DNA of 45,845 bases from Gemmatimonadota bacterium. GTDB taxonomy: Bacteria; Gemmatimonadota; Gemmatimonadetes; Gemmatimonadales; GWC2-71-9. Shown here in pieces: positions 3,308 to 42,580 of the stretch. Each line of letters opens with the position of its first letter. Within the stretch, counting starts at the first letter, position 1. Made by a program: the position numbers and the translations under genes. The DNA lies in the NCBI GenBank assembly GCA_016794805.1, contig JAEUJI010000073.1:1-45845 (forward strand), in the 5' to 3' direction. The notes beneath the pieces are model-generated. The model was not told where the DNA came from. It made no database searches and saw only the letters and a program-made list of their open reading frames with translations.

Positions 3308-3343
3308 ATTTGGGAACGGGATACACCGCCAGATCGGCACCTA

Positions 3344-3356
3344 GCACACAGTGTGC
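3344..3356. promoter_or_regulatory. 13-bp inverted repeat close to the start codon
   Basis: GCACAC-A-GTGTGC has 6-bp arms around a single base, ending 19 bp before the ATG at 3376. It could act as an operator or as an mRNA hairpin just upstream of the ribosome binding site GGAG at 3359-3362. Function is inferred from position only. Confidence 0.35.
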
Positions 3357-3375
3357 ACGGAGATACCCCGACTTT

Positions 3376-5894: not shown

Positions 5895-6522
5895 GTGGCT
5901 GAACTGGATGCCTGGGGCCGTGCTGGCGCTTGGCTGCGTCTTTACGCTCGCGGTGGACCACCAGCAGCGCACCCCGCTGGTGCGCTCCCTGGACAGCATT
6001 CCGATGACGCTGGGCGGTCGGGAGGGTGTGACCGGGGAGATCCGGCCCCAGGAGGTCGCGGCCGCGGGGGTCTCGAACTATCTGCGGCGGGTCTTCCCCG
6101 CCGCCGCGGCCCAGTTCGAGATCTACGTCGGCTATTATGAGCACCAGACCCAGGGGCGCTCGATCCACTCACCCAAGAACTGCCTCCCCGGTTCGGGCTG
6201 GGAGGCGCTGCAGCAGCGCACCACCGAGGTCCCCGGCGCCGGCGCATCCTACACCGTGAACCGCTACCTGCTGCAGAACAAGGAACAGCGGGCGCTGGTG
6301 TTCTATTGGTATCAGGGGCGCGGCCGGGTGGCCGCCAGCGAGTACCGGGTTAAGTGGGAACTGCTGCGGGACGCCGCGACGCGGGGTCGTACCGAGGAGG
6401 CGCTGGTGCGGATCGTGGTGTTCCTCGATCCCCAGACGACAGAAGAGGCCGCCGAGGACCTTGCCCGTCGCGTGGCGGCGGACCTGATCCCGGCGGTGTT
6501 CCAGTCGCTGGCCCCCGCCTGA
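5887..6522 (+). CDS. EpsI family protein, exosortase partner
   Basis: A 211-aa protein with one N-terminal membrane helix (about 5-22, WLNWMPGAVLALGCVFTLAV) and a periplasmic domain. The hallmark HSPKNCLPGSGW is present, as is the family pattern of an aromatic-rich strand (ALVFYWYQGRGR). EpsI proteins co-occur with exosortases and in some phyla are fused to them; the biochemical role is not settled. The first codon overlaps the last codons of the exosortase gene, so the two are very likely translated together. The gene ends 14 bp before a convergent glycosyltransferase. Confidence 0.92.
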   Translation: MREWLNWMPGAVLALGCVFTLAVDHQQRTPLVRSLDSIPMTLGGREGVTGEIRPQEVAAAGVSNYLRRVFPAAAAQFEIYVGYYEHQTQGRSIHSPKNCLPGSGWEALQQRTTEVPGAGASYTVNRYLLQNKEQRALVFYWYQGRGRVAASEYRVKWELLRDAATRGRTEEALVRIVVFLDPQTTEEAAEDLARRVAADLIPAVFQSLAPA

Positions 6523-7709: not shown

Positions 7710-8836
7710 GCCAGATCCTTGGAGCGGCGCGCCGCAATGGCGCGGTAGAGTGCCAGATGCTGTTCGAGCCAGGGCCCGGGGGCGAAACGCCGGGTGAGCA
7801 CCTCGCGGGCCCGGGCGGCCCGGGTCGCGGCCGCCGCAGGATCCCGGCGGACGGCGATGATCCCCTGGGCGAGCGCCGCCGGATCCTCCGACGGCACCAG
7901 CAGGGCCTCGGACTCGGTGATGACGTCCGGAACGCCGCCGACCCGCGTCGCCACGATCGGCACCCCGGCGGCCATGGCCTCGAAGAGCGCGATCGGTGTC
8001 CCCTCGGTGCGGGAGCTGAGGACGTAGCAATCGAAGCCCGGGAAGAGCGCGGCGGCCTGCGGCACCATCCCGGTCCAGCGCACCAAGCCGGCGAGCCCCA
8101 GGTCCGCCGCCTGCCGCTCGAGGGCGGGGCGCTCGTGGCCATCGCCGACGATCACCGGGACCGCATCCCGGCCGGCGCCGGCCGCCAGGGCCGCGAGGAA
8201 CACGTCCGCCCCCTTCTCCGCCGAGAGCCGCCCCACCCATCCGATCGCGAAGTCCGAGTCCGTCAACCCGAGCCGGGCCCGCGCCGGTCCGCGGGGGGTG
8301 GGGGGCGCGGGAGCCCACGCGTTGGGGATCACGGCGATCCGATCCGCCGGCAGGCCCTGGCGGACCAGCCGTTCCTCTAGAGGGCGGGAGACGGCGATCA
8401 CGGTAGCGAACCGCCGAAAGGCCCGCAGCTGCAGCCGCTCGTACAGGCGGTTCTTCCAGTCGCCACCGGTGAACCCGTGGACGGTGCTGACTCGAGGGAT
8501 ACCCAGCGCCCCCGCCGCCGACCCCGCGATCAGGTCCGCCCGGTAGCCGTGGGAGTGCACCACCGCCGGCCTGAATTCCCGAATCCACGCGAGGTACTGC
8601 GCCCGCTCCCGCAGGTAGGCCCGAGGGGGCAGCCGGTGCGAGAGAACCCGGACCCCGGCCCCCTGCAGCTCCTCCCACCCAGGAGGGAGCGGCGCGCCGG
8701 CATCAAGCATGAGCGCCACCGCCACCTCACCACCCAGTTCCGCCCAGCCCCGGGAGTGCATCTGGACGACGCTCTCGAGCCCGCCCGCAGGGCTGGGGGC
8801 CAGCGCGTGGAGAATCCTGGGGTATGGTGGAGTCAT
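7700..8836 (-). CDS. GT4 family glycosyltransferase
   Basis: A soluble or peripheral GT-B retaining glycosyltransferase of 378 aa, adding a sugar from a nucleotide donor to the lipid-linked glycan. The N-terminal half has the GGLE loop (SPAGGLESVVQMHSRG) and the HSHGYRADLIAG acceptor region. The C-terminal donor domain has VIPNAW, GWVGRLSAEKGADVFLAAL and the E-x7-E motif in SRTEGTPIALFEAMAAG, followed by PIVATRVGGVPDVI. Length and motifs are normal for the family. It starts at an ATG in the divergent region before the six-gene array. Confidence 0.92.
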   Translation of the reverse strand: MTPPYPRILHALAPSPAGGLESVVQMHSRGWAELGGEVAVALMLDAGAPLPPGWEELQGAGVRVLSHRLPPRAYLRERAQYLAWIREFRPAVVHSHGYRADLIAGSAAGALGIPRVSTVHGFTGGDWKNRLYERLQLRAFRRFATVIAVSRPLEERLVRQGLPADRIAVIPNAWAPAPPTPRGPARARLGLTDSDFAIGWVGRLSAEKGADVFLAALAAGAGRDAVPVIVGDGHERPALERQAADLGLAGLVRWTGMVPQAAALFPGFDCYVLSSRTEGTPIALFEAMAAGVPIVATRVGGVPDVITESEALLVPSEDPAALAQGIIAVRRDPAAAATRAARAREVLTRRFAPGPWLEQHLALYRAIAARRSKDLACT

Positions 8837-9083
8837 GTACGGACCGCTGGTGCAAGAGCTGTACTGCCCGACCGGGGCTCGGGCACGACGCCCGGGCGCG
8901 GAGTTGCGGCGGGAAAGCTACACTAGCGCGGTGACGGAACTACAGGACGGCCCCCCGGACCCGCGGGGAGGGATCCCACCCCCGGCCCCTGCCGTCAAAC
9001 CCAGCAGCCGACCAGATTCAGGACTCCACGGCAACCATGGGTCACCCCTCAATGACAGCACTGATGGCCGGCAGCGGGCGCGC
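8837..9083. promoter_or_regulatory. Divergent intergenic region before the six-gene array
   Basis: These 247 bp lie between the GT4 start (minus) and the first array gene (plus). A TACACT near 8919-8924 resembles a -10 box for the plus strand but has no good -35 at 16-18 bp. A second in-frame GTG at 8931 could also start the array gene. No gene is seen here. Confidence 0.3.
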
Positions 9084-10916
9084 GTGACACCACCTCGCAT
9101 CCCTCCCGCCCCGCCTCGGCTGGCCGACCTGCTTGGCCTCGGCGCGGTATTCGGGCTCGCCGCCGGCATTCTGGAACCGCTGGTCCTGCTCTCCAAGATC
9201 TCCTCCGCCAGTGAGGGGCGGCTGATGCTGGGCGACCACCTCTGGTGGATGCCGTCCGCGGCGCAGATCGCCCTGATGTCGCTGGTGGCGCTGGCGTGCT
9301 GGTGGCTGGCGCGCCGGTGGCCAGAGAGGGTTACCCTCCCGATCCTGGTGGGGGTCTTCACCGGCCTCGCGGCGCTCTCCCCGCTGCGCTTGCTCGACGG
9401 GCTACTGGGCGTCTGGACCGTCAACCTGATCGTGCTGGGGCTCGCGGTGCGCGGCGGGCAATGGCTGGCCCCGAGGCTGGCTGGGAGGCTGACGTTCATC
9501 CGCCGGATCGCCGGGGTGGGGATCGTGGCGGTGTCACTGCTGGCGGGCGGCATCACGCTGCGACACCATCGGGCGGAGGCCAGGGCCGTGGCCGGGCTCC
9601 CTCCAGCCCGCCCCGGGAGCCCCAACATCCTGCTGCTGGTCCTGGACACCGTCCGGGCAATGAACCTCTCGGTGTACGGCTACCAGCGCGCGACCACACC
9701 CGTGCTGGAGCGTCTGGCGGCCCGCGGGGTCGCCTTCGACCGGGCGATCAGCACCGCCCCCTGGACCAGGCCCTCGCACGCGAGCCTGTTCACCGGGCGC
9801 TGGGAGCACGAACTCACCGCCGATCACCTCGTGCCGCTGAACGGCGCCTACCCCACCCTCGCGGAGCAGCTCGCCGGCGTGGGCTACCGCACCGGCGGTT
9901 TCGTTGCCAACCTCACGCACGCCACCCCTGCCGCCGGCATCGCGCGCGGCTTCGCGCACTATGAGGCGCACCTGGTGACGCCGGAACAGGTCGCGGTGAG
10001 CGCCTGGTTTCCCGGGCACCTGTACAAGATGCTGCCCAAGGGTGGCCTGCTGCCCGAGGCCCGGATCAACTACGTGCGGAAGACGGCGGACGACATCAAC
10101 CGGGCGATCCTCGCCTGGGTGGACCGGAGCCCGGGGCGGCCGTTCTTCGCGTTCGCCAATTACATGGACGCGCACGATCCCTACCGGCCCCAGCCGCCGT
10201 TCGACACCCTCTTTGCCGAGCCGGCGTATCCGGCTCTGCCCCCCACGCGGGCGGACGGGCCAGGCCTCGACCGCCCGCGGGAGATGCGCCCGTACGACCA
10301 GGCGATCGCCTACCTCGACTACGAGATCGGCCGGCTGCTGGACGCGCTCGACGCGCGCGGACTGCTGGCGAACACGGTGGTGATCGTCACCTCCGACCAT
10401 GGCGAGGCGTTCGGCGAGCACGGCATCTATGGCCACGGCAGTACCCTCTACATGCCGATGCTGCACGTGCCCCTGCTGCTGGCCGGCCCCGGCGGCTGGC
10501 CGGAGGGAAAGCGAGTGGAGGAGTGGGTAAGCCTCCAGGCCCTAGCCCCCACGGTGATGGAACTGGCCGCCCCATCGGTGCGGCATCCGTTCCCGGGGCC
10601 CTCGCTCACGCGATTCTGGCGCGGGGACAGCATCGGGGCGGCCCCGCTGCTGGCGGGCTCGCGCTATGCCGCCAACAATCCCGCCTGGTACCCCACCTCC
10701 AAGGGCACGCTGCACGGCCTGATCGCGGAAGGGAAGCTGCTGGTGCGTGAAGCCGACGGGCGGCGCGAGCTGTTCGACCTGGGCAGCGATCCGATGCAGT
10801 TCACCGACCTGCTGCTCCGGAACCCCGACGACCCGACCGCCGCCCGCCTGGGGACCCAGCTGAACACGCTGGTCGGACCCGTCGTTCCCCACCCGGGGTG
10901 GCGGCCGGCGCGGTGA
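9084..10916 (+). CDS. Array protein 1: five-helix membrane protein of the alkaline phosphatase/sulfatase superfamily, Thr nucleophile
   Basis: A 610-aa inner-membrane protein with five N-terminal helices (Glu inside helix 1, in GLAAGILEPL) and a periplasmic alkaline-phosphatase-fold domain. Likely metal/catalytic residues are Asp188 (LLLVLDTVRA), Thr228 (PWTRPSH) and Asp438-His439 (TSDHGEAFGEHG); GHGSTLYMPMLHVPL follows. Sulfatases need a Cys or Ser in C-x-P-x-R for formylglycine; here the position is Thr, so a sulfate hydrolase is unlikely. A transferase or phosphodiesterase is more plausible. The GTG at 9084 is chosen because it puts helix 1 near the N-terminus as in the five paralogues; GTG 8931 is an alternative and no strong Shine-Dalgarno decides. 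It is the first gene of an operon running to 24720. Confidence 0.85.
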   Translation: MTPPRIPPAPPRLADLLGLGAVFGLAAGILEPLVLLSKISSASEGRLMLGDHLWWMPSAAQIALMSLVALACWWLARRWPERVTLPILVGVFTGLAALSPLRLLDGLLGVWTVNLIVLGLAVRGGQWLAPRLAGRLTFIRRIAGVGIVAVSLLAGGITLRHHRAEARAVAGLPPARPGSPNILLLVLDTVRAMNLSVYGYQRATTPVLERLAARGVAFDRAISTAPWTRPSHASLFTGRWEHELTADHLVPLNGAYPTLAEQLAGVGYRTGGFVANLTHATPAAGIARGFAHYEAHLVTPEQVAVSAWFPGHLYKMLPKGGLLPEARINYVRKTADDINRAILAWVDRSPGRPFFAFANYMDAHDPYRPQPPFDTLFAEPAYPALPPTRADGPGLDRPREMRPYDQAIAYLDYEIGRLLDALDARGLLANTVVIVTSDHGEAFGEHGIYGHGSTLYMPMLHVPLLLAGPGGWPEGKRVEEWVSLQALAPTVMELAAPSVRHPFPGPSLTRFWRGDSIGAAPLLAGSRYAANNPAWYPTSKGTLHGLIAEGKLLVREADGRRELFDLGSDPMQFTDLLLRNPDDPTAARLGTQLNTLVGPVVPHPGWRPAR

Positions 10917-10923
10917 GGCGAAA

Positions 10924-12720
10924 GTGAGTCCGCCGGTGCGCCCGCGCGAGATCCTGGCCCTGGCCCTCCTTAGTGGGGTGCTGGCAGGGCTGCTCGAGTC
11001 CCTGAGCCACTTCATCCGGTACTGGGGCTTCGAGGGGATGCTGCCGCTGGGCTGGTACATGTCGTGGATGCCGGCGGTCGCCAACGGCGCGGTGTTCCTG
11101 GCGCTGGGCCTGCTGCTGGCGGGGGCGGCACGACTCGCCCCGCGGCTCCTTACCCCCGCGCGGCTCGTGGGACTCCTGGTCTTCCTGACCGCGATGGCGG
11201 CGCTGCGGGTGCTCGACAACAGCCTCAGCGTCCTCACGGTGGACCTGATCGCGCTCGGCCTCGGGGTCCGGATCGGGAGCTGGGCGGGACCGCGATTCGA
11301 CGCGCTGCGCCGGTGGGCGCTGCCCGCGACAGCGGCCCTGGTCCTGCTCACGGCCGCGCTCGCGGCCGGAGTGGAGGTGGGCGAGCGACTGACGGAGCGA
11401 CGGGCGGCGCGACAGCCCGCGGCCCGGGAAGGCGCCCCGAATGTGCTCCTCCTGGTCCTGGACACGGTGCGGCGCCTCAACCTGAGCGTGTTCGGCTACG
11501 AGCGCCGCACCACCCCGGAGCTGGAGGCGCTGGCGGCGCGCGGGGTCCGCCTCGAGAACGCGCTCTCCACGGCGCCATGGACCCTCCCCTCCCACGCCGG
11601 CATGTTCACCGGCCGCTGGGCACACGAGCTGAGCGCCAGCTGGGCCACGCCGCTCGACGACTCCTTCCCGACACTGGCGGAGGTCCTCACCGCCCGGGGC
11701 TACCGCACCGCCGGGTTCGTGGCCAATGTCTCCTATGCCGGCCGGAGCGTCGGCCTCGGGCGCGGCTTCGGGTACTTCGAGGATGTGCCGGTTTCGCTGC
11801 TGCAGATTGCCCGGAGCGCGGCATACACCAGCTGGATCACCTCGCGACCGGCCATCAAGCGGCGGCTCCCTCCCTACTACAAGAGCTACCAGCGGAAGAG
11901 CGCGGTCGAGGTCAACGCCGCGCTGTTCCGCTGGCTCGACCGCGACCCGGGGCGGCCGTTCTTCGCGTTCCTCAACTACTTCGACGCCCACGATCCCTAC
12001 CGTCCGATCGCCCCGTTCGATACCGCGTTCTCCGCGCCGGCCTACCCGCCGACCCCGCCCTCCCGGCATGGCGGGAGCTTCGCCGATGACCGTCCCCGTT
12101 CCCCCCGTCCATATGACCAAGCCATCGCCTCGATCGACGCCGAGATCGGGCGGCTGCTCCGGGAACTGGAGCGGCGGGGGCAGCTGCACAACACGCTCGT
12201 GATCGTCACTTCGGATCATGGGGAGGAGTTTGGCGAGCATGGCATGTATGGGCATGGACACACGCTCAACCTGCAGGCGCTCAACGTCGGGGCGATCCTG
12301 GCCCTCCCCGAACGAATCCCGGCAGGGCTGCGGGTGACCCAGCGGGTCAGCCTCAGGGACCTGCCCGCCACAGTGCTGGACCTGACGGGTACGGACCCGG
12401 CGGGGACCTTTCCAGGCGCCTCGCTGGCCCGGTTCTGGCTGGAGCCAGCATCGGTGGCCGAGACGTTGTTTGCGGAGACCCGCCTGGCCCGGAACCGGCC
12501 GGCGTGGGATCCGACATCCGAAGGCGATCTGCAGAGCCTGTTCGCAGCCAACCTGCACTTCATCCGTCACCCGGACGCGACCACCCAGCTGTACGATATC
12601 GCCGGTGATTCACTGGAAAGCCGCAACCTTGCAACCGATCCCGCATTCAGCGGCACGGCCGGGCACCTGGGCAGCGTCCTGGATCGGGTGATGGGTGCGC
12701 CCAACCGGCGCAGCCCCTAG
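10924..12720 (+). CDS. Array protein 2: five-helix alkaline phosphatase-superfamily membrane protein
   Basis: A 598-aa paralogue of its neighbours, starting at a GTG 7 bp after the previous stop, with GAGG in the gap as ribosome site. Helix 1 again carries the GLLES glutamate. Asp180 (LDTVRR), Thr220 (PWTLPSHAG) and Asp431-His432 (TSDHGEEFGEHG) keep the superfamily metal site. It departs from the other copies after GHG: the usual LY-x4-HVPL stretch reads TLNLQALNVGAIL, so the conserved His-Val-Pro is lost. That may alter the substrate pocket. A 27-bp gap to the next gene is the largest inside the array. Confidence 0.85.
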   Translation: MSPPVRPREILALALLSGVLAGLLESLSHFIRYWGFEGMLPLGWYMSWMPAVANGAVFLALGLLLAGAARLAPRLLTPARLVGLLVFLTAMAALRVLDNSLSVLTVDLIALGLGVRIGSWAGPRFDALRRWALPATAALVLLTAALAAGVEVGERLTERRAARQPAAREGAPNVLLLVLDTVRRLNLSVFGYERRTTPELEALAARGVRLENALSTAPWTLPSHAGMFTGRWAHELSASWATPLDDSFPTLAEVLTARGYRTAGFVANVSYAGRSVGLGRGFGYFEDVPVSLLQIARSAAYTSWITSRPAIKRRLPPYYKSYQRKSAVEVNAALFRWLDRDPGRPFFAFLNYFDAHDPYRPIAPFDTAFSAPAYPPTPPSRHGGSFADDRPRSPRPYDQAIASIDAEIGRLLRELERRGQLHNTLVIVTSDHGEEFGEHGMYGHGHTLNLQALNVGAILALPERIPAGLRVTQRVSLRDLPATVLDLTGTDPAGTFPGASLARFWLEPASVAETLFAETRLARNRPAWDPTSEGDLQSLFAANLHFIRHPDATTQLYDIAGDSLESRNLATDPAFSGTAGHLGSVLDRVMGAPNRRSP

Positions 12721-12747
12721 GAGTGTTTCGCATGACCCCCTCCCTCC

Positions 12748-14562
12748 ATGGCTGAGGCGGTTTTTCCCCGGCACCCGCACCCAGTGGCCATCGCGGCGCT
12801 GGGCGGGCTCGCGGCCGGCGGCCTCGAGCTGGCGGGCTATGCCATCCGGCATGTCTTCCTGGGCGAGTTCCTGTTCCAGGGCCCGCACCTGATCTGGGCC
12901 GCGCCGGCGGCGAACCTGCTGGTGTACCTGATGCTGGGCCTGGGGCTGACACTAGGGGCGATGGTGCTGCCCCGGCTCTTCACCACCGGCGTGATCACCG
13001 GCAGCGTCGCCGGCCTGGCGATGTTCGGCCTGCTCTACATCTTCCCGCAGCTGCACCGGGTGGCGAGCCTCATCCTGGCGCTCGGGGTGGGGGTGCAGGC
13101 CGGACGGTGGGCCGCCGGGCACCCGGATGCCCTCGGCCGCGGTGTCCGACGACTGCTGCCGGCGGGCCTCGGCCTCGTGTTGCTGCTGGCGGCGGCCACC
13201 GGCGCCTGGCGGATGTATCGCGAGCACCGGGCGCTCCGCGCCATCGGCGAGGCCACCCCGGGGACCCCGAATGTCCTGCTGCTGGTGCTGGACACGGTGC
13301 GGGCGTTCAACCTGGGCATGTACGGCTACCCCCGCCCCACCAGTCCCAACCTGGACGCCTTCGCGGCGACCGGCGCGCGCTTCGAGCAGGCGTTCTCGAC
13401 CGCGCCGTGGACCCTGCCCAGCCATGCCAGTCTGTTCACCGGCCACCAGGCCCACGAGTCGCGCGCCGACTGGATGGTCCCGCTCGAGGACACGGTGGCG
13501 ACGGTCGCGGAGGTGCTCTCCCGCTACGGCTTCGTCACCGCGGGGTTCTCCGCCAACACCGACTACGCCAGCGAAGAGGTGGGGCTGGCGCGCGGCTTCA
13601 CGCGGTTCGAGGATTACACCCTTTCTCCGGCGCGACTGCTCCGCCACTCGCAGCTGGCCCTGGCGGTGGCACGCAACCGCACCCTGCGCCGCCTGCTCGG
13701 CGCGTACGACAATCTGGGCCGCAAGCATGCCCCGGAAGTCACCGCCCGCATCCTCGGCTGGCTGGACGATCGCCCGGCGGAGAAGCCGTTCTTCATCTTC
13801 GCCAACTACTACGACGCGCACCGGCCCTACCTGCCACCGGCGCCGTGGAACCGGAAGTTCGCCGCCGATGGCGGGAGCATCGACCCCCGGCTCGATCGCA
13901 CCGGGCGCCCGGGGGATGCGGCGCGGGCCGAGCGGACCCAGGGGGCGATCGACGCCTATGACGGCGCGATCGCCTACCTCGACGACGAGCTCGGCCGGCT
14001 GTTCGCGGAGCTGGGGCGGCGGAAACTCCTGACCAACACCCTGGTGATCATCACCTCGGACCATGGCGAGGAGTTCGGCGAGCATGGCATCTTCGATCAT
14101 GGCAACAGCCTGTACCGGCAATCGCTGCAGGTGCCGCTGGTGATCCGGCTCGACAACCGGATTCCCCCCGGCTCCGTGGTGGACGAGGCGGTCTCGCTGC
14201 GGGACATCCCCGCGACGATCACGGACCTCACCGGGCTCGGCTCCGGCATCCTCTTTCCCGGCCAGTCGCTGGCGGAGCGGGTGTTCGACCCCACCCGCCC
14301 GGCGGATACGATCTTCGCGACGGTGCGGAAGGCCATCCGCCAGCCCGCGTCCTATCCCGCGGCGCAGGGCGACCTCTCCTCGGTGGCGATCGACAGCCTG
14401 CGCCTGATCCGCAACCTCGGCACCGGGCGCGAGGAGCTGTTCGACTTCCTGCGCGACCCCCGCGAGGCTTCCGATCTGCGGCCATCGCCCCGTGGTGACA
14501 CCGCCGCGGCGCGGCTTGGCGCCCTCCTGCCCTCCCCTCCCAGCCACCAGGCCACGCCGTGA
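12748..14562 (+). CDS. Array protein 3: five-helix alkaline phosphatase-superfamily membrane protein
   Basis: A 604-aa paralogue. Catalytic positions are Asp182 (LDTVRA), Thr222 (PWTLPSH) and Asp438-His439 (TSDHGEEFGEHG). The paralogue motif HVP reads QVP. Helix 1 contains the conserved Glu (AAGGLELAGY). The start is uncertain: the good Shine-Dalgarno GGAG (12720-12723) serves an ATG at 12732 that stops after seven codons, and the ATG at 12748 overlaps that stop. Translation may be coupled through this tiny frame. The 3' end overlaps the next GTG by 4 bp. Confidence 0.83.
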   Translation: MAEAVFPRHPHPVAIAALGGLAAGGLELAGYAIRHVFLGEFLFQGPHLIWAAPAANLLVYLMLGLGLTLGAMVLPRLFTTGVITGSVAGLAMFGLLYIFPQLHRVASLILALGVGVQAGRWAAGHPDALGRGVRRLLPAGLGLVLLLAAATGAWRMYREHRALRAIGEATPGTPNVLLLVLDTVRAFNLGMYGYPRPTSPNLDAFAATGARFEQAFSTAPWTLPSHASLFTGHQAHESRADWMVPLEDTVATVAEVLSRYGFVTAGFSANTDYASEEVGLARGFTRFEDYTLSPARLLRHSQLALAVARNRTLRRLLGAYDNLGRKHAPEVTARILGWLDDRPAEKPFFIFANYYDAHRPYLPPAPWNRKFAADGGSIDPRLDRTGRPGDAARAERTQGAIDAYDGAIAYLDDELGRLFAELGRRKLLTNTLVIITSDHGEEFGEHGIFDHGNSLYRQSLQVPLVIRLDNRIPPGSVVDEAVSLRDIPATITDLTGLGSGILFPGQSLAERVFDPTRPADTIFATVRKAIRQPASYPAAQGDLSSVAIDSLRLIRNLGTGREELFDFLRDPREASDLRPSPRGDTAAARLGALLPSPPSHQATP

Positions 14563-16310
14563 GCGAGACCACCACCGACAGCCAGCCCCTTACCCTGCCG
14601 GGCCTGCTCTGGCATACCCTCTGGTTCGGCATGGTCGCCGGGCTGCTCGAGGCGCTGATCCTCTTCACCCGGCGCTTCGCGATGCACCAGACGGTGTGGG
14701 TGAGCGACGATTTCGTGTGGATTGCGCCGCTCTCCTACGCCCTCTTCTTCCTGGTGCCAGGGGCGGTGCTGCTGCCGCTCCGGCTGGCGCGCCCGGCCTG
14801 GGCCACGCCGCGGATCGTCGCCGGGCAGCTCACGGTACCCACCGCGATGATTGCCAGCCTGGTGCTGCTCGGCGGGACGCTGCACTGGGTGGCGCACCTG
14901 CTCCTCGCCACGGGGATCGCGGTGCAGGTGAGCCGGGTGGCAGGGCGCCCCAGCGCCCCGGTGGCGCGGCTGGTCCGGCGCACCGCCCCGGCACTGCTGG
15001 CCCTGCTGCTGGCCGTGGCGCTGGTGTTCCCGCCGGCCCGGCGCTGGCAGGAGCGGCGCGCCGCCGCCGGGCTCCCGGGCGCTCCCGCCGGCGCGCCAAA
15101 TGTCCTGCTCATCATCTGGGACACGGTGCGGGCGCAGAGCCTGAGCCTGTACGGCTACACCCGGGCCACGACGCCACTGCTGGATCGGCGCGCAGCGACC
15201 GGTGCGGTGTTCGACCTGGCACAATCCACCGCGCCGTGGACCGCCGCGTCCCATGGGAGCATGTTCACCGGGCGGCTCACCCAGGAGATGTCGATCGGCT
15301 GGCGGACCCCGCTCGACCGCTCGGACTCGACGCTGGCGGAGGCGCTGCAGCGCCGGGGGTACCGGACCGGCGGCTTCACCGCGAACCTGATCGCCACCAC
15401 CCGTGAATCGGGGCTGGCCCGCGGCTTCGGGCACTACGAAGACTTCGTCCTCTCCCGGGAGCTGTTCCTGCACTCCACGCTCGTGGGGCAGCGGATCAAG
15501 CGCTGGCGGCCCCTGGGCGGCGGTCCGCTCCGCTTCTATGACCACAAGCGGGCGGCCCAGGTCACCGATGCCTTCCTGGCCTGGAACGCGGAGAAACGGG
15601 ACCAGCCCTACTTCGCGTTCCTCAACTACTTCGATGCCCACGATCCGTACTTCGCCCCGCCTGACTGGCGGGAACGGTTCCCCACCGGCGACCGGCTGCA
15701 GAACAAGTACGACGCCGCCATCCAGCTGCTTGACGCCGAGGTGGACCGGCTGCTCGCGGAACTGGAGCGACGGGGCCAGCTGGGGAACACGATCGTGATC
15801 CTGACGGCGGACCATGGGGAGCTGTTCGGCGAGCATGGCTTGCACCAGCATGGGAACAGCCTGTACCAGCCGCTGCTGCACGTCCCGCTGGTCATCTGGG
15901 GAGCGCCCGGGCTGCCCGCGGGCAGCCGCATCCCGGCCCCGGTGAGTCTGCGGGACCTCCCCGCGACGATCCTGGCGATGGTGGCGCCGGCCGCCCCCCA
16001 CCCCTTCCCCGGCGCTTCGCTGAGTCGCGCGTGGGAGGCGGGGGCAGCGGCGGACACGCTGGTCGCCGGGGCGCCCAAGGGGATCGGGACTCCACCGCAC
16101 GAGCCGGTGACCCGGGGGAACATGAGCTCCCTCCTCGCGGGAACGATGCAATACATCCTCAATGGTGACGGGGTCGAAGAGTTGTACGACGTCGCGGCCG
16201 ACCCCGATCAGCTCACCAACCTCGCGGCCGACAGTTCCCGACTCGGTCCGTGGCGGTCGGCGCTCGGTGTCCGGGTGCCTGCCACCTGGCATCCGGAGCT
16301 CCGCCGATGA
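14559..16310 (+). CDS. Array protein 4: five-helix alkaline phosphatase-superfamily membrane protein, divergent active-site loop
   Basis: A 583-aa paralogue whose GTG start overlaps the previous TGA (GTGA). Asp188 lies in LIIWDTVRA and Thr228 in PWTAASHGSMFTG, so the loop has lost the Pro found in the other five (T-x-P-S-H becomes T-A-A-S-H). The Asp418-His419 pair lies in TADHGELFGEHG. It is the shortest copy: the stretch between DAHDPY and the DHG motif, longer and variable in the others, is compact here. The five N-terminal helices include FGMVAGLLEALILF with the shared Glu. It ends in an ATGA overlap with the next gene. Confidence 0.85.
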   Translation: MSETTTDSQPLTLPGLLWHTLWFGMVAGLLEALILFTRRFAMHQTVWVSDDFVWIAPLSYALFFLVPGAVLLPLRLARPAWATPRIVAGQLTVPTAMIASLVLLGGTLHWVAHLLLATGIAVQVSRVAGRPSAPVARLVRRTAPALLALLLAVALVFPPARRWQERRAAAGLPGAPAGAPNVLLIIWDTVRAQSLSLYGYTRATTPLLDRRAATGAVFDLAQSTAPWTAASHGSMFTGRLTQEMSIGWRTPLDRSDSTLAEALQRRGYRTGGFTANLIATTRESGLARGFGHYEDFVLSRELFLHSTLVGQRIKRWRPLGGGPLRFYDHKRAAQVTDAFLAWNAEKRDQPYFAFLNYFDAHDPYFAPPDWRERFPTGDRLQNKYDAAIQLLDAEVDRLLAELERRGQLGNTIVILTADHGELFGEHGLHQHGNSLYQPLLHVPLVIWGAPGLPAGSRIPAPVSLRDLPATILAMVAPAAPHPFPGASLSRAWEAGAAADTLVAGAPKGIGTPPHEPVTRGNMSSLLAGTMQYILNGDGVEELYDVAADPDQLTNLAADSSRLGPWRSALGVRVPATWHPELRR

Positions 16311-18112
16311 CCGAGCCATCGCGGGGGGTGGTGCCGCGCGCGGCCGCGCTCGGCGTCGTCAGCATTGCCCTCGCGAGCGGGCTGCTGGAAGCACTGATCC
16401 TGGTCCTGCTGCGCCAGTGGCATGGCTTCGCGTGGAGCGGCCCGGACGCATTCTGGATGGCGCCCCTGGCATACCTCGCCTTCTACTCGGTGGCGGCGGC
16501 GCCGCTGCTGCTGGCGGCCTGGCTCTGGCCCCGGGTCGCGCGGCTCCAGCTGCTTCTCGCCCCGTTCCTGGTGGCGTCTTCCTACTGCCTGCTGCTGGTG
16601 GCCTTCACCTCGAGCCTCCACTGGACTGCGCGGCTGCTGCTGGCGCTGGGGCTGGGCCTCACCGCGTCACGGCGGCTGGCCGCGAGCCTGGTCACGCCAC
16701 GCCAGTGGCTGCCGGTCGCGGGCTCGCTGCTCGGGGCGGTCGGGGTCGCGGCCGCCGTCGTGGTCGGGGTCCCGACGCTGCTGGAGCGAGCACGGCACGG
16801 GGGCGCGCGTCCTGGCGCCCCAAGCGTCCTGCTCATCATCCTCGACACCGTGCGGGCCAAGTCGCTGAGCCTCTACGGCTACTCGCGCCCCACCACGCCA
16901 AACCTCGAGCGGTGGGCCGCCCGGGCGGTGGTCTTCGACTCCGCCTACGCCCCATCCTCCTGGACCCTGCCCTCCCACGCCTCCTACTTCACCGGCCGGC
17001 CGCACCGGGAGTTGCGGGTGGACTGGCTGGAGCCGCTGGCGGATTCGGTGCCGGTGCTCGCCGAGGCGTTCGCGCAGGCGGGTTACCGCACGGGGGGCTT
17101 CGCCTCCAACTGGTTCTACACCACACGGGAGTCGGGGCTGGCCCGCGGGTTCGCGCACTACCAGGACTTCCGCCGGACCGCCAAGCAGCTGCTGCTCCAT
17201 TCGGCGCCGGGGCAGCTGCTGGTGAGCCGTCACCCCGGGCACTACGAACGGGAGCGTGATGTCCACCGGAAGGATGCGTCGGTGGTCAGTGAGGAGTTCC
17301 TGGCATGGGCCACACAGGACACCAGCAGGCCCTTCTTTGCATTCCTCAACTATTTCGACGCCCACAAGCCGTACGCCACCCCGCCGGGGGGGCACCCGGA
17401 TTTCGGGGGGACAAGGAAGGCCGTCGACGGCTACGACGTGAACGTCTGGTATCTCGACCGGGAGCTGGGGGCGCTGCTGGAGGAACTGGACCGGCGCGGG
17501 ACCCTCAAGGACACGTGGGTGGTCATTACCTCCGACCACGGCGAGCTCTTCGGCGAGCATGGCCTGCAGGGGCACGGCAACAGCCTCTATGGCCCATCCC
17601 TGCATGTCCCGATGATGATCCTGGGCCCGAACCTGCCCGAGGGCCGGCGGATCACTCATCCCGTGACGGTTGCCGATGTGGCCCGCACCCTGGTCGAAGT
17701 GGCGGATATCCCCGCGCCGGCCATCGAAGGCGAGTCCCTGGGGGACTGCTGGACCAGGCCGGCCTGCGGCGACACGGTGCCGCCGGTGATCGGCGCGGCG
17801 CTGACCGGGCCCGAGGAGGTTTCCCCGGGTGACACGCTCGGCGCGAAGCCGTGGGTGGCGGTGTTCAGCAACGGCTGGGAGTACCTCCGGCACGCCGACG
17901 GCGAGGAGGAGCTGTATCTCCTTCCCCGGGATTCCAGCGAGACGCAGAACCTGGCCGGCGACCCCGGACTCGCGGACACCCTCGAGCGCCTTCGGGAAGC
18001 GGCGCAGGAGTACGAACTGCCGGGCACGACCCCACCCGACACGATGCCGCCCGACGTGACGCCCCCGGATTCGGCGCCACCGGATTCGACGCCGCCGCCG
18101 GACCAGCCATGA
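16307..18112 (+). CDS. Array protein 5: five-helix alkaline phosphatase-superfamily membrane protein with Pro/Asp-rich tail
   Basis: A 601-aa paralogue. The ATG at 16307 overlaps the preceding stop (ATGA) and is preferred to the upstream in-frame start at 16250. Asp180 (LIILDTVRA), Thr220 (SWTLPSHASYFTG) and Asp410-His411 (TSDHGELFGEHG) form the expected site. The block STAPW before the Thr is changed to APSSW. After the last domain strand the protein carries an extra disordered tail of five PPDxx units not seen in the other copies, which might span peptidoglycan or bind a partner. The gene overlaps the next ATG by 4 bp. Confidence 0.86.
   Translation: MTEPSRGVVPRAAALGVVSIALASGLLEALILVLLRQWHGFAWSGPDAFWMAPLAYLAFYSVAAAPLLLAAWLWPRVARLQLLLAPFLVASSYCLLLVAFTSSLHWTARLLLALGLGLTASRRLAASLVTPRQWLPVAGSLLGAVGVAAAVVVGVPTLLERARHGGARPGAPSVLLIILDTVRAKSLSLYGYSRPTTPNLERWAARAVVFDSAYAPSSWTLPSHASYFTGRPHRELRVDWLEPLADSVPVLAEAFAQAGYRTGGFASNWFYTTRESGLARGFAHYQDFRRTAKQLLLHSAPGQLLVSRHPGHYERERDVHRKDASVVSEEFLAWATQDTSRPFFAFLNYFDAHKPYATPPGGHPDFGGTRKAVDGYDVNVWYLDRELGALLEELDRRGTLKDTWVVITSDHGELFGEHGLQGHGNSLYGPSLHVPMMILGPNLPEGRRITHPVTVADVARTLVEVADIPAPAIEGESLGDCWTRPACGDTVPPVIGAALTGPEEVSPGDTLGAKPWVAVFSNGWEYLRHADGEEELYLLPRDSSETQNLAGDPGLADTLERLREAAQEYELPGTTPPDTMPPDVTPPDSAPPDSTPPPDQP
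18032..18109 (+). repeat. 15-bp tandem repeat encoding PPDxx pentapeptides
   Basis: Five units encode PPDTM, PPDVT, PPDSA, PPDST and PPDQP, with one extra Pro codon before the last unit, at the very end of array gene 5. Units differ mainly at wobble bases and in the last two residues, so the peptide repeat looks selected rather than freshly duplicated. The same stretch carries the start of the next gene at 18109. Confidence 0.75.
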
Positions 18113-19959
18113 TGCCGGGAACCGAAACTTCGCCCCGGCCGGGCGCGCGACAGGTCCTGACCCTGGCGGTCTGGCTCGGCATCGTGGGCGGGCTGCTCGA
18201 GGTGGCGCTGGTCTTCTATCGCCGCGCGGCCGACGGGGAGTTCACCGGGCGCCCCCGGGACCTGCTGTGGCTGGCGCCCCTGACCTACGCGCTGCTCTAC
18301 CTGCTCTGGGCCGGAATGGTGTTGCTGGTGTCGGGGAAGTGGCGGCGGCTCTCTCCCATCCCCGTCGTCGGTTTCGGCTGCGGCGGCGCGATCGTGGCGA
18401 GCCTGCTCACCACCCACTTCGGCCCCCGGCTGCACCCCGCGGCGGTGCTGCTGCTTGGACTGGGCGCCGGGCTCCAGCTCGCCCGCATGCTGGGCCGGAA
18501 CGGCGGCCTGCTGCCGCTGGTCCGACGGACCACCCCCTGGCTCCTGCTCGTGCTGCTCCTGGTCGCGGCGGGGAGCGTGGGCCGGCGGGCCTGGCAGGAG
18601 CGGCGGGCGCGAGCCGCCCTCCCGGCCGCCACGGCCGGCGCCCCGAACGTCCTGCTGCTGGTGCTCGACACGGTGCGCGCCGCGAGCCTCAGTCTCTATG
18701 GGCACAACCGCCCCACCAGTCCCACGATGGAGCGGGTCGGGCACGAGGGCGTGGTGTTTGACCAGGCGCTCTCCACTGCCCCGTGGACCCTGCCGAGTCA
18801 CGCCAGCATGTTCACCGGCCGCTGGCCGCACGAGCAGACGACCAGCTGGTTCCGGCCCCTGGACAAGACGGACTCCACCCTGGCGGAGGCGCTCGCCGGG
18901 CGCGGCTACGCCACCGGCGGATTCGTCGCCAACCTGCTCTACACCGACTACGAGAAGGGCCTGGGGCGCGGCTTCCAGCGCTATACCGACTTCGGGTTCG
19001 GCCTGGCGACGATGCTCAACAGCTGCACCCTCACCCGCCGGCTCGCCGGGGCGCGGTCGCTGCGGGTCCTGCTGGGCACCGACGAGATGCTCACCCGGAA
19101 GCACGGCACCGACGTCAACGCCGAGTTCCTGGCGTGGCAGGCGGGGCTCGAAGGGCGGCCGTTCTTCGCGTTCCTCAACTACTTCGACGCCCACGACCCG
19201 TATATCCCGCCCCCGGAGTGGTTCCGCCGGATCGCCGGGTACGAGCGCCGCGACGAACTGAGCCCGCTCCGGCGGCTCGGCGTCCTGCAGCGCCGGGACG
19301 GGATGCGCCCGGAGGAGATCCTCTACGAGCGGGACGCCTACGAGGCGGCCATCGCCTGGCTGGACGCGATGATCGGGGAGCTGCTCACCGAGCTCGAGCG
19401 ACGCGGCGCCCTGGAGAACACCATCCTGGTGATCACGTCGGACCATGGCGAGGAGTTCGGTGAGCACGGAGTCTTCCTCCACGGGCACACGCTCTACCGG
19501 GACGCCATCCACGTCCCGCTCGTGATCCGGGCGCCGGGGCGGGTCCCGGCGGGAGTCCGGGTGACGCCGCCGGTGAGCCTCCGCGACCTGCCCGCCACGC
19601 TCCTCTCCCTGGCCACGGCCAGGCCGAACAAAACCTTTCCGGGCGGCAGCCTGGCGCGGTTCTGGAGCGGCGGCCTCCAGCAGGCCGAGCCGGTGCTGAG
19701 CGAAGTGCAGCAGGCGGTCCGCATGCCGGAGTGGTATCCGGCGGCCGGCGGCATGCTTCGCGCCCTGACCGACACCAGTCATCATTTCATCCTCAACCCC
19801 AAGGGGCCACCGCAGCTGTTCGACTGGCGGGCTGATCCAGAGGAACGGGTCAACCTGGCCGGCACGCCGTCCGGGGACTCGCTGGTGCCGCGCTATGAGG
19901 CGCCGCTCCGGGCGCTTCCCCCCTTTCCCAGTCCCGCGCGCAAGGTGGAGTTCCCGTGA
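18109..19959 (+). CDS. Array protein 6: five-helix alkaline phosphatase-superfamily membrane protein
   Basis: A 616-aa paralogue, starting at ATG 18109 (overlap ATGA; a second ATG follows directly at 18112). Helix 1 holds the shared Glu (VGGLLEVALVF) and helix 2 the WLAPLTYALLY motif common to the array. Asp187 (LLLVLDTVRA), Thr227 (PWTLPSHASMFTG) and Asp445-His446 (TSDHGEEFGEHG) are intact, and HVPLVI is present. It has the longest insert between DAHDPY and DHG (about residues 365-420, rich in Arg and Glu). The stop overlaps the start of the GT39-like gene. Confidence 0.86.
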   Translation: MMPGTETSPRPGARQVLTLAVWLGIVGGLLEVALVFYRRAADGEFTGRPRDLLWLAPLTYALLYLLWAGMVLLVSGKWRRLSPIPVVGFGCGGAIVASLLTTHFGPRLHPAAVLLLGLGAGLQLARMLGRNGGLLPLVRRTTPWLLLVLLLVAAGSVGRRAWQERRARAALPAATAGAPNVLLLVLDTVRAASLSLYGHNRPTSPTMERVGHEGVVFDQALSTAPWTLPSHASMFTGRWPHEQTTSWFRPLDKTDSTLAEALAGRGYATGGFVANLLYTDYEKGLGRGFQRYTDFGFGLATMLNSCTLTRRLAGARSLRVLLGTDEMLTRKHGTDVNAEFLAWQAGLEGRPFFAFLNYFDAHDPYIPPPEWFRRIAGYERRDELSPLRRLGVLQRRDGMRPEEILYERDAYEAAIAWLDAMIGELLTELERRGALENTILVITSDHGEEFGEHGVFLHGHTLYRDAIHVPLVIRAPGRVPAGVRVTPPVSLRDLPATLLSLATARPNKTFPGGSLARFWSGGLQQAEPVLSEVQQAVRMPEWYPAAGGMLRALTDTSHHFILNPKGPPQLFDWRADPEERVNLAGTPSGDSLVPRYEAPLRALPPFPSPARKVEFP

Positions 19960-21377
19960 CGCCGGAGCGGTGGAGCCGGGACCGGTGGTTCCTTGGGGTG
20001 CTGGCCGGCTCGGTCCTGCTCAAGCTCGTGCTCGCCTTCGTGGTGCGGCACGACGCCGCGATCCTCGACGAGGCCGCCTATCTGGAGCTGGCCCAGGGAC
20101 TGGCGGCGGGCCGCGGGTTTGACGGCACCTTCCGTCCACCCGGCTACCCCGCGTTCCTCGCCATCTGGCTCTGGCTCGGTGCCGGCACTCTGGGCGCCCG
20201 CCTGGCGCAGGTGGGACTGTCGGCGGTTTCGACGATCATCGTCTACCGGCTCGGAGCCCGCGCGGGCGGAATCCGGGTGGCACGGGTGGCGGCGGCGGTC
20301 GTCGCATTCGACCCGGTGCTGATCGCGTTCTCCCACCGGCTCTGGTCCGAGACCCTGTTCATCACCGTGCTGCTGCTGGCGGTGGACCTGCTGGTGCGTC
20401 CCTGGCAGGAGCGCTCGCTGGCCCGGACGGCCGCGGCTGGGGTGCTGTTCGGGCTGGGCGCGCTGATCCGTCCCATGCTGGTCACCGCCCTGCCGTTCCT
20501 GGCCCTCTGGCTGTTGTGGGAAGCGTGGCTGGGGCGGCGGGAGGGAGCCGGGATGCAGCTGGCGGGCCGGGGGCTGCACCTGGGGCTGCTGGCCGGGGTG
20601 ATGTTCGCGCTGATCCTGCCCTGGACCGCGCGCAACCAGCGCACCACCGGGACCTTCATCCTGATCGACAGCAACGGCCCGTTCAACATCCTGGTGGGGA
20701 GCCAGCCCGAGTCGCGCTTCGTGGACAAGGACGATCTCTGGTCGGATCGGTACGGCGTCGTCGATGGGCGCGCCTACACCGAACTGGTGCGGGAGGATGC
20801 GGCCCGGGCACAGGCCGGCGCCATGCGCGAGGCCCGGGCCAATATCGCCGCGGACCCCGTCGGGTTCCTGGCCAAGTGCCTCTGGGAGGCGGGCCACTTC
20901 TGGACCCTCGACTCCTTCCTGCTGCGCCACCTGCGCAACGACTGGTACGGGAAAGGCGTCCCGGGGTGGGTGACGCCGCTGGTCACGGTGCTCGCCGCCG
21001 GCTTCTTCGCGGCGCTGGCCCTCGCCGGGCTCGCGGGCCTGCTTACCGCGCTGGACGTTCCGGTCCTGCGGCTGGGGCTGCTGCTGCTGCTCCAGTCCCT
21101 GTTCCTCTTCGGCGCCACCTATGCCCTCTCCCGCTATTCGGTGCCGCTCCGGCCGTTCCTGGCGCTGGGAGCCGCCTTCCTGGTGGCGGGACCGGTCACT
21201 CCGGGGGAACGATGGCGCGCGCTCCGCGGCGGCCACCGCCTGGTGACGGCGCTCGCGCTGGCGCTGGTCTCCCTGAGCTGGGTGCGGGACCTGCCGCTCC
21301 TGGCTGACCTGCTCCGGAACGAAGGCGCCGGCCACCGCTTCCGCATGGAGCAGACCCCGCCGACCCCGGGCACCTGA
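19956..21377 (+). CDS. GT39-like (ArnT/PMT family) membrane glycosyltransferase
   Basis: A 473-aa GT-C fold enzyme expected to use a polyprenyl-phosphate sugar donor on the periplasmic side. After helix 1 the first loop has DEAAYLELAQGLAAGRGF with the acidic Asp-Glu expected for catalysis, then RPPGYPAFLAIWLWLG as in ArnT relatives. About ten to twelve helices follow and a positive C-terminal end. The GTG at 19956 overlaps the stop of array gene 6, so it belongs to the same transcript. Acceptor and donor cannot be told from the sequence. Confidence 0.82.
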   Translation: MTPERWSRDRWFLGVLAGSVLLKLVLAFVVRHDAAILDEAAYLELAQGLAAGRGFDGTFRPPGYPAFLAIWLWLGAGTLGARLAQVGLSAVSTIIVYRLGARAGGIRVARVAAAVVAFDPVLIAFSHRLWSETLFITVLLLAVDLLVRPWQERSLARTAAAGVLFGLGALIRPMLVTALPFLALWLLWEAWLGRREGAGMQLAGRGLHLGLLAGVMFALILPWTARNQRTTGTFILIDSNGPFNILVGSQPESRFVDKDDLWSDRYGVVDGRAYTELVREDAARAQAGAMREARANIAADPVGFLAKCLWEAGHFWTLDSFLLRHLRNDWYGKGVPGWVTPLVTVLAAGFFAALALAGLAGLLTALDVPVLRLGLLLLLQSLFLFGATYALSRYSVPLRPFLALGAAFLVAGPVTPGERWRALRGGHRLVTALALALVSLSWVRDLPLLADLLRNEGAGHRFRMEQTPPTPGT

Positions 21378-21380
21378 CCC

Positions 21381-23150
21381 ATGACCGCCATCCTCCTCGC
21401 CACCTTCCTGGCGCTGCTCGCCCTCGGGGCTCCCGGCCGCGGCCGGGGGCTCCTCGCCCTGCGCGACCTGACCCGCACCCTGTTTGCGTCCCGGATCGTG
21501 GTGCCCACGGTGGTGGTACTCGCGCTGGTCGCGGTCCTGGGCCGGCGCTACCTGGACGTGACGGCGTACGCCGAACGGGTGGCGGTCACCAGCGTCGGGT
21601 TCCTCGCACTCTATGTCCTGGCCGACCGGCTGGAGTGGGGCTCCAGCCGGATCGTGGCGTGGTGCGACCGGCGCACCCTGCCCCAGCTGCTTCTGGCCGG
21701 CAGCATCGCCAGCCTGCTGGCCGGATGGCGCCTGCTGGACTTCTTCCCCCATGTGAGCGACGAGGTCGCCTACCTCTTCCAGGCCAAGGCGATGTCGCAG
21801 GGCGCGCTGAGCTTTCCCGCCCCCGATCCCGCCGGGTCCTTCGTGTTCATTCACACCATGGTGGAGCACGGCCGCTGGTTCGGGATCATGAACCCGGGGT
21901 GGCCCGCCCTGCTCGCCCTCGGGGAGGCGATGCGCGCCCCATGGCTGATCAACCCGCTGCTCGGGGCGCTCGCGCTGTGGCTGTTCAACGGCTTCTTCCG
22001 CGAAGCGGGATTCACCAGCCGCACCCGGCGGCTGGCGCTGCTGCTGCTGGCGGTCTCGCCGTTCCTGCTGTTCATGAATGGCACCTTCATGGCCCACCCG
22101 GCCAACCTGGCGCTGTTCGGCGCGTTCTGCTGGAGCTGGGCCCGGCTGCTGCGCACCGAGTCCCGCCGCGATGCGGTCCTCGCGGGGCTGGCGCTGGGCC
22201 TCAACCTGCTGGTGCGGCCGATCGACGCGGTGGCGGTGAGCCTCCCCTTCGCCGTGCAGGGCCTGCTCCGGTTGCGGCGGAACCCGCGCCTGCTCCCGCT
22301 CTTCGCGATCACCACGATCGTGGCCAGCGGCGGCGTGCTGCTCACCCTGCTCTACAACCGGGCGCTCACCGGCGACGCGATGGTCATGCCGATGAGCCGG
22401 TACTTCGAGCTGCGGAACCCCCTCGAGCGCTTCGGGATGGGGTTCGGCGCGGATATGGGCACCAAGATCCACGGCGACGAATGGCCGGGGTTCTATCCTG
22501 CGGACGCGGTGGCGGTGAGCAGCTACCGGCTGGCGCAGCTCTTCCTGGATCTCTTCGGGCTCCCCATCCTGCCGGTGGCCGCGCTGGCCCTGGCCGTGGT
22601 GCGCCGCCGGGACTGGGACGAGTGGTTCACCGTCCTGCTCGGCACCATCGCCTCCCTGGTCGGCGTGTACTTCTTCCATTTCTACCATGGCATCGCGTAC
22701 GGGTCCCGCCACCTCTACCTCGCGGCGCCCGCCCTCGCCCTGGCGATGGCCCGGCCGGCCGCCGACTGGCTGGAGCGGGGCACCCCCGAGGTGACCCGGC
22801 GGGGGCGCGCGGTGGTGGTCGCGCTGCTGGCGTTCACGCTGCTCTTCGCCTATCCCCCGCTCTGTCACGAGTACGGGCGGCTGTACCGGAACGTGGATGG
22901 ACGGGTGCGAGACGCGGGCAGTGTGACGAAGCTCACCAACGCCCTGGTCTTCGTGGATGAAGCCCGGTGGGGCTGGAAATTCACCTTCCCGCTCAACGAT
23001 TACCCTCTGGAAGCCAACCGGGTACTCTTCGTCCGGGACTCGGCCGCGCTCAACCCCCGTGTGGCCGAACGCTTCCCCGGTCGTCAATCCTATCGCCTGA
23101 CGATCGAACGCGACGGCGGCGTCACCCTGACCCCGCTCGCAGGACCCTGA
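21381..23150 (+). CDS. Polytopic membrane glycosyltransferase, GT39-like
   Basis: A 589-aa integral membrane protein with about twelve helices and a short C-terminal soluble part. The loop FFPHVSDEVAYLFQAKAM contains the Asp-Glu seen in GT-C enzymes at the same place. GIMNPGWPALLALG and VRPIDAVAVSLPF are further conserved-looking loops. The C-terminal 100 residues form a small periplasmic domain (LNDYPLEANRVLFVRDSA). It starts 3 bp after the previous gene. Compared with the upstream GT39-like protein it has an extra N-terminal helix pair. It could be a protein or glycan glycosyltransferase; the exact substrate is unknown. Confidence 0.75.
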   Translation: MTAILLATFLALLALGAPGRGRGLLALRDLTRTLFASRIVVPTVVVLALVAVLGRRYLDVTAYAERVAVTSVGFLALYVLADRLEWGSSRIVAWCDRRTLPQLLLAGSIASLLAGWRLLDFFPHVSDEVAYLFQAKAMSQGALSFPAPDPAGSFVFIHTMVEHGRWFGIMNPGWPALLALGEAMRAPWLINPLLGALALWLFNGFFREAGFTSRTRRLALLLLAVSPFLLFMNGTFMAHPANLALFGAFCWSWARLLRTESRRDAVLAGLALGLNLLVRPIDAVAVSLPFAVQGLLRLRRNPRLLPLFAITTIVASGGVLLTLLYNRALTGDAMVMPMSRYFELRNPLERFGMGFGADMGTKIHGDEWPGFYPADAVAVSSYRLAQLFLDLFGLPILPVAALALAVVRRRDWDEWFTVLLGTIASLVGVYFFHFYHGIAYGSRHLYLAAPALALAMARPAADWLERGTPEVTRRGRAVVVALLAFTLLFAYPPLCHEYGRLYRNVDGRVRDAGSVTKLTNALVFVDEARWGWKFTFPLNDYPLEANRVLFVRDSAALNPRVAERFPGRQSYRLTIERDGGVTLTPLAGP

Positions 23151-26180: not shown

Positions 26181-26430
26181 CGTCACCGGGTCAGGAGGAT
26201 GAAGAAGGGTCGGGGCACATTCCAAGCCAGATGGCAGAGTGAGGGACCGGCTCCACGGTCCACCGGCCGGGGCCCATCCCGCGCTTTGGGCGTTGCCTGT
26301 AACATGTTACGCTGAAACAGGTTATCCTCTTGCCCCAGACTGGGGAACGAGCCGTTACCATGGGTGTCATTCTTGCCCCGATGGCTCAGCCCTTGCTGAG
26401 CAGGGGCCATCACCACTCACGCACAACCGG
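26181..26430. promoter_or_regulatory. Divergent promoter region between amidohydrolase and the GT39-like operon
   Basis: This 250-bp region is more AT-rich than its surroundings and has no gene. A perfect 12-bp palindrome lies at its centre (listed separately). A TTGCCT at 26293-26298 and TATCCT at 26323-26328 resemble promoter boxes but are 24 bp apart, too far for a standard sigma-70 promoter. Confidence 0.4.
26299..26310. promoter_or_regulatory. 12-bp perfect palindrome GTAACATGTTAC
   Basis: GTAACATGTTAC is fully self-complementary and lies 118 bp from the amidohydrolase start and 120 bp from the next gene start. Its almost exact central place between divergent genes fits an operator serving both. 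No cognate regulator is visible in the window. Confidence 0.4.
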
Positions 26431-40739: not shown

Positions 40740-40741
40740 GG

Positions 40742-42301: not shown

Positions 42302-42309
42302 GGCTGGCC

Positions 42310-42564: not shown

Positions 42565-42580
42565 CGGTGGTTCTCCGGAA

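Follow-up and report, generated by a model that had tools for sequence, protein, structure and literature searches.

Six tandem five-helix, Thr-type PF00884 proteins in an exopolysaccharide locus of a Gemmatimonadota bacterium: candidate headgroup transferases rather than formylglycine sulfatases

The window considered here, a stretch of 45,845 nucleotides (contig JAEUJI010000073.1, positions 1 to 45,845), comes from a Gemmatimonadota bacterium (assembly GCA_016794805.1; 3.9 Mb, 97% complete). It carries a tandem array of six genes, S1–S6, whose products combine N-terminal membrane helices with one PF00884 (sulfatase-type) domain and have Thr where sulfatases have their catalytic Cys:

9084–10916, forward strand: S1, five-helix Thr-type PF00884 protein, 610 residues, GTG start; D188, T228, H364, D438-H439, H451
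10924–12720, forward strand: S2, 598 residues, the member modelled with AlphaFold; D180, T220, H224, N268, N351, H356, D431-H432, E434, H444
12748–14562, forward strand: S3, 604 residues; D182, T222, H358, D438-H439, H451
14559–16310, forward strand: S4, 583 residues; D188, T228, H361, D418-H419, H431
16307–18112, forward strand: S5, 601 residues; D180, T220, H353, D410-H411, H423
18109–19959, forward strand: S6, 616 residues; D187, T227, H362, D445-H446, H458

S1 and S2 are separated by 7 bp and S2 and S3 by 27 bp, while S3/S4, S4/S5, S5/S6 and S6 with the next gene (starting at 19956) overlap by 4 bp each. Because of these overlaps the six very likely form one operon, continuing into membrane glycosyltransferase-like genes. 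Each protein matches PF00884 once (E from 3e-43 to 4e-49), and all six also match the phosphodiesterase family PF01663. S2–S6 are 36–47% identical to S1, and the array is therefore not an assembly duplicate. A structure of S2 was predicted with AlphaFold2 from a 110-sequence alignment (predicted local distance difference test, pLDDT, 93.4; predicted template modelling score, pTM, 0.93). It has helices at 7–37, 49–71, 78–97 and 103–162, the last making two membrane passes, with the catalytic domain beginning at a strand at 173. The count of five helices is read from this model; hydropathy alone gives three to five per protein. Orientation is taken solely from loop charges, which weakly favor a cytoplasmic N-terminus and an external catalytic domain, so that the domain is probably periplasmic and the architecture would be that of a five-helix periplasmic member of the alkaline phosphatase superfamily. 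The original prediction, made from the sequence alone, had described six consecutive paralogues of this layout; open reading frames, PF00884 matches and the S2 model agree with it, and its Asp and Thr positions, as well as an Asp-His pair further on, were recovered in all six proteins as listed.

Are these proteins sulfatases, as their automatic label says? Conservation was counted in two sets, 124 non-redundant five-helix sequences and the 110-member alignment. The nucleophile position holds Thr in 114 and Ser in seven of the former where aligned, and Thr in 104 and Ser in six of the latter; neither set has a single Cys. The Ser variants (W-S-L-P-S-H; loci L027, L115, L144, L176 and others) are consistent with a hydroxyl nucleophile. 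The stretch corresponding to the maturation motif reads T-x-P-S-H in the window (T-A-A-S-H in S4), never C/S-x-P-x-R. The sulfatase Arg is His in 121/121 five-helix sequences, the second metal Asp is replaced by Thr, Ala or Val, and the G-K-W-H sulfate pocket is absent, all members having A/G/S-N at the K-W position. Cys-type proteins analysed alongside retain the Cys and the Arg, mostly have Asp-Asp and keep GKWH where it is aligned. What is invariant in the 110 members is a different group of residues, namely D180, H224, N268, N351, H356, D431, H432 and H444 in S2 numbering, with E434 in 109/110; in the 124 sequences the counterparts Asp188, His232, Asn276, Asn359, His364, Asp438, His439 and His451 (S1 numbering) are invariant wherever aligned.

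The machinery for formylglycine formation was likewise not found. A search of the genome detected no formylglycine-generating enzyme (FGE, PF03781), and the best match to the anaerobic sulfatase maturase (anSME, TIGR03942) scored 33 bits, where the cut-off is 349. That score belongs to a radical S-adenosylmethionine (SAM)/SPASM protein at 31637–32806 (forward strand), which was considered as a maturase and rejected; the NCBIfam models it comes closest to describe radical-SAM proteins of the heme pathway, matched far below cut-off, and of other kinds, and it passes the cut-off of none. The gene lies within the polysaccharide locus described below and has relatives in loci of two other genomes (G342, L149; G118, L145). 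According to the SulfAtlas paper, oxidation of Thr would yield a ketone instead of formylglycine (PMC5066984). The same work found Thr in place of Cys in 30 of the 59 PF00884 seed sequences and has already pointed out the mislabelling of Thr proteins. Thus, it is well supported that the five-helix proteins are not formylglycine sulfatases, and the original prediction was right to call the label misleading. The PF00884 match above cut-off and the arylsulfatases among the nearest folds are what the label has in its favor, and we regard the chance that it is correct as close to negligible. The exact 40-residue spacing between Asp and Thr, on the other hand, was given more weight than it can bear: it is present in all six proteins and in 116/120 five-helix sequences, but also in 68/79 other Thr-type proteins and 18/31 Cys-type sulfatases. 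It is a trait of the whole superfamily branch and therefore has no discriminating value.

In fold and profile, however, the catalytic domain resembles sulfatases. When profiles are compared, the match to Cys sulfatases spans the entire domain with its C-terminal part (E=2e-60), and that to EptA/B/C only the catalytic core (E=5.9e-16). Scored against the family profile, the E. coli proteins rank as YidJ (170 bits), YejM (48), EptA (47), OpgE (13) and OpgB (7). The top Foldseek matches of the S2 model are phosphonate monoester hydrolases and sulfatases, and EptA/MCR are not among the best 50. In the tree, Thr-type proteins stand apart from Cys-type ones (SH-aLRT support 91), with the five-helix clade nested among them (91; 96 without its deepest member), and long branches place EptA, EptB, EptC, YejM and OpgB outside. 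The best score to the NCBIfam EptA model is 53 bits (cut-off 561), to the domain model NF028537 49 bits (cut-off 500), and to the LtaS model at most 14 bits (cut-off 970). The original assignment to the LtaS/EptA/MCR type thus survives only in part: the five helices and the MCR-1/EptA metal-site residues are there, the latter invariant, but kinship finds no support, and a phylogeny with Cys-type sulfatases and EptA went against it. Judged from sequence and model, this is an EptA-like catalytic set in a sulfatase/phosphonate hydrolase-like fold, and the family belongs to neither EptA nor LtaS.

With such a fold, the proteins might simply be Thr-dependent hydrolases, cleaving phosphodiesters, phosphonates or lipid-linked phosphate at the periplasmic face for polymer trimming or donor recycling. 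Besides the structural matches to phosphonate monoester hydrolases and phosphodiesterases, the retained sulfatase-type C-terminal part and the PF01663 matches of all six are in keeping with this. However, phosphonate monoester hydrolases use formylglycine, which is absent here, the catalytic set matches that of phosphoethanolamine transferases, and the array sits within a polysaccharide assembly locus, overlapping glycosyltransferase-like genes; we regard hydrolysis as unlikely. A non-catalytic role as membrane sensor or chaperone, of the kind proposed for YejM/LapC, is very unlikely, whether for the whole family or for part of it. YejM has the same membrane layout and scores about as well as EptA, but across the 110 members every catalytic and metal position shows full or almost full conservation, and Ser is the sole substitute for Thr.

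How do the proteins compare with characterized systems? They share fold, domain order and C-terminal part with the S1-family sulfatases and phosphonate monoester hydrolases (PDB 4UPH, 4UPI, 3ED4), the best Foldseek and PDB profile matches, and like these have a sulfatase fold with a C-terminal subdomain. They differ in having Thr/Ser for Cys and His for Arg, in the loss of the second metal Asp and GKWH, in an invariant His that replaces the C-terminal Lys region, in the five helices and in the lack of a detectable maturase in the genome. LtaS also has five helices and a Thr-based extracellular domain, but differs by its negligible model score; a separate LtaS-like PF00884 protein is encoded elsewhere in the genome (L004:3761–5821, reverse strand; G000:C192). 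In that protein Glu occupies the metal position, and the nucleophile region is divergent. EptA, EptB, EptC and MCR likewise have five helices before the catalytic domain, and an acidic ligand, Thr, Asp-His, two further His and Glu in corresponding places. They score only 33–47 bits, and the five-helix family differs in having Asp for Glu, an additional sulfatase-type C-terminal part and a helix 5 that runs almost straight into the catalytic domain. In MCR-1 the first zinc is bound by Glu246, Thr285, Asp465 and His466, and His395, His478 (second site) and Glu468 are important for activity (PMC5216409). The alignment program hhalign pairs D180, N268, H356, D431-H432, E434 and H444 of S2 with EptA counterparts, and the whole EptA/MCR set has equivalents in the family, the nucleophile column being ambiguous in the EptA alignment. 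From the conservation of these residues, a metal may be bound at D180, D431 and H432.

In function, a precedent exists in E. coli, where OpgE and OpgB, membrane enzymes with a comparable layout, transfer phosphoethanolamine and phosphoglycerol from phospholipids to a periplasmic glucan (PMC3818809). They too join membrane helices (in OpgE, segments within the first 162 residues; PMC3818809) to a periplasmic sulfatase-type domain acting on a glycan, but have almost no sequence similarity to the family and are encoded by single genes, not arrays. The functionally uncharacterized Thr-type PF00884 proteins noted in the SulfAtlas paper share Thr for Cys, and the five-helix clade nests among them; what sets it apart is the five-helix part, the tandem arrays, the polysaccharide loci and the linkage to sulfate activation. 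Literature searches turned up no named five-helix Thr-type polysaccharide enzyme.

The array is embedded in genes for the making and export of a polysaccharide, and the window also carries several glycosyltransferases and a flippase:

153–2024, forward strand: polysaccharide chain-length/ATPase protein
3310–4212, forward strand: export protein (Poly_export)
4215–4991, forward strand: bacterial sugar transferase
4998–5894, forward strand: exosortase, a marker of exosortase-type exopolysaccharide loci
5887–6522, forward strand: EpsI, a marker of the same type of locus
19956–21377, forward strand: membrane glycosyltransferase-like protein (PMT_2), overlapping S6 and probably in the same operon
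21381–23150, forward strand: multi-helix membrane protein, glycosyltransferase-like by context, no Pfam match, 3 bp after the PMT_2 gene
38226–40739 and 42581–45139, reverse strand: two related large membrane proteins, MBOAT-plus-SGNH by eye, no Pfam or NCBIfam match
40742–42301, reverse strand: amino-acid-adenylating enzyme
42310–42564, reverse strand: carrier protein, 105 bits to the OlsHI acyl carrier protein (ACP) model (cut-off 130)

These surroundings support a role of the array in exopolysaccharide decoration. The reverse-strand genes at 38226–45139 look like an aminoacyl or acyl decoration system. Their relatives flank arrays in three other genomes (G055, G130, G271), and in a fourth (G059) the carrier alone does so; the model of the 38226–40739 protein (pLDDT 64) is too poor for interpretation. 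An amidohydrolase gene (24717–26225, reverse strand) breaks the run of forward-strand polysaccharide genes.

We therefore put forward, at about even confidence, that S1–S6 are periplasmic, metal- and Thr-dependent headgroup (phospho-)transferases that decorate an exosortase-type exopolysaccharide. The proposal builds on the gene array, the fold, the residue conservation, the absence of formylglycine machinery and the locus context, and it supposes a metal, a periplasmic location, a phospho-donor, transfer rather than hydrolysis and one substrate per paralogue. The catalytic domain, which follows immediately on the fifth helix, would lie on the periplasmic face. Thr220 of S2, activated by a metal on Asp180, Asp431 and His432, would attack the phosphodiester of a membrane-lipid headgroup donor while His356, His444 and Glu434 hold the phosphate, and the covalent phospho-Thr intermediate would pass its group to a hydroxyl of the exopolysaccharide or of its lipid-linked repeat unit.

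Several observations weigh against this proposal. The closest folds are those of hydrolases (phosphonate monoester hydrolases, sulfatases), and EptA, OpgE and OpgB are only distant relatives, as their bit scores show. No homology was detected between the five-helix part and the membrane parts of EptA, OpgE or OpgB, the hhalign match with EptA covering the catalytic core only. Furthermore, hhalign sets Thr280 of EptA at Thr216 of S2, four residues off and non-conserved (59/110); Thr220 is taken as the nucleophile because it aligns with the sulfatase Cys and is Thr or Ser in all 110. Lys333 of MCR-1 lacks an invariant counterpart, Arg280 (103/110) being a guess. In addition, the linkage to synthesis of 3'-phosphoadenosine-5'-phosphosulfate (PAPS), described below, suggests that the pathway involves sulfur chemistry.

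Why six paralogues? A five-helix profile search (E ≤ 1e-60) of 395 genomes drawn from the phylum found members in 32, with 112 genes in all including those of the present genome (G000). Similar arrays recur, as tandem runs of six (this window), five, four, three and three and several of two. In the tree S1 and S2 are sisters, and S3–S6 scatter among paralogues of other genomes. Most paralogues are therefore old, and recent local duplication of the array was rejected except for S1/S2. Among the six, core stretches are 56–58% identical, whereas residues 283–330 and 361–394 reach only 21–23%, as would be expected if substrates differ. The two divergent stretches are probably substrate-facing, and from the sequences the paralogues likely serve different acceptor positions or headgroups. 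What is new here is a recurrent Gemmatimonadota array whose paralogues are old, keep a common core and vary in their substrate regions, together with its repeated linkage to PAPS synthesis.

This linkage begins in the genome itself, where a seventh five-helix Thr-type paralogue (X, 8271–10085) lies inside a cysN-X-cysQC-cysD operon with overlapping ends (L108:6433–12300; G000:C307), beside glycan genes that include one for a UbiA-family prenyltransferase. More generally, of the 29 genomes having both a five-helix gene and a kinase for adenosine 5'-phosphosulfate (APS), 11 have the two no more than 10 kb apart, with 0.37 expected (tail probability 1.5e-14, a figure that ignores the relatedness of the genomes). 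The cys-linked genes make up three separate lineages of cysND type, and for the Sat-CysC type supported branches require no fewer than 10 label changes; a single cys-linked orthologous subfamily was rejected, the linked genes being separate lineages. Locus-level inheritance with gene replacement could partly explain the linkage. Genes for a PHP protein and a sodium:sulfate symporter accompany Sat-CysC near arrays, and sulfotransferase matches occur near arrays in G134, G147, G161 and G316. In genomes of the same order (L111, L142, L167, L179, L239–L244) the Sat-CysC fusion, PHP and symporter genes form a cassette beside the Thr-type arrays, several cassettes being extended by a further APS kinase gene and a divergent PF01663 phosphodiesterase-like gene.

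The exopolysaccharide is thus probably also sulfated. Taken further, the cysN-X-cysQC-cysD arrangement, the APS kinase frequency, the several linked lineages, the Sat-CysC cassettes and the sulfotransferase matches might mean that the Thr enzymes themselves move or remove sulfate on it, as trans-sulfatases or editing enzymes without formylglycine. A Cys54Ser variant of choline sulfatase does keep weak activity (PMC5870055). However, activity of its K102L variant, lacking the GKWH Lys, is below detection (PMC5870055), and no five-helix member retains this Lys. PAPS is a cytosolic compound and the catalytic domain probably a periplasmic one, ordinary sulfotransferases could be the PAPS users, and the linkage may reflect only a common polymer target or joint inheritance of loci. 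We hold this sulfur chemistry to be improbable. A broader version, in which the family is a formylglycine-free Thr-nucleophile class carrying out periplasmic sulfo-transfer or editing on exopolysaccharide sulfate esters, co-selected with PAPS synthesis in Gemmatimonadota, is a long shot; if true, the array would be a multi-enzyme writer and editor of the sulfation pattern. Most simply, ordinary PAPS enzymes would sulfate the polymer, and the Thr enzymes would decorate it in a separate process.

Among bacteria, sulfated exopolysaccharide has been portrayed as peculiar to cyanobacteria (PMC8205485), and the linkage to sulfate activation suggests that non-phototrophic Gemmatimonadota may make it as well. 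A testable coupling between two modifications, sulfation and decoration by the Thr enzymes, follows from the same linkage. A misleading label borne by many related genes is corrected, and in its place stands an uncharacterized set of membrane enzymes, whose probable task is to decorate exopolysaccharide in a phylum that is widespread but little studied.

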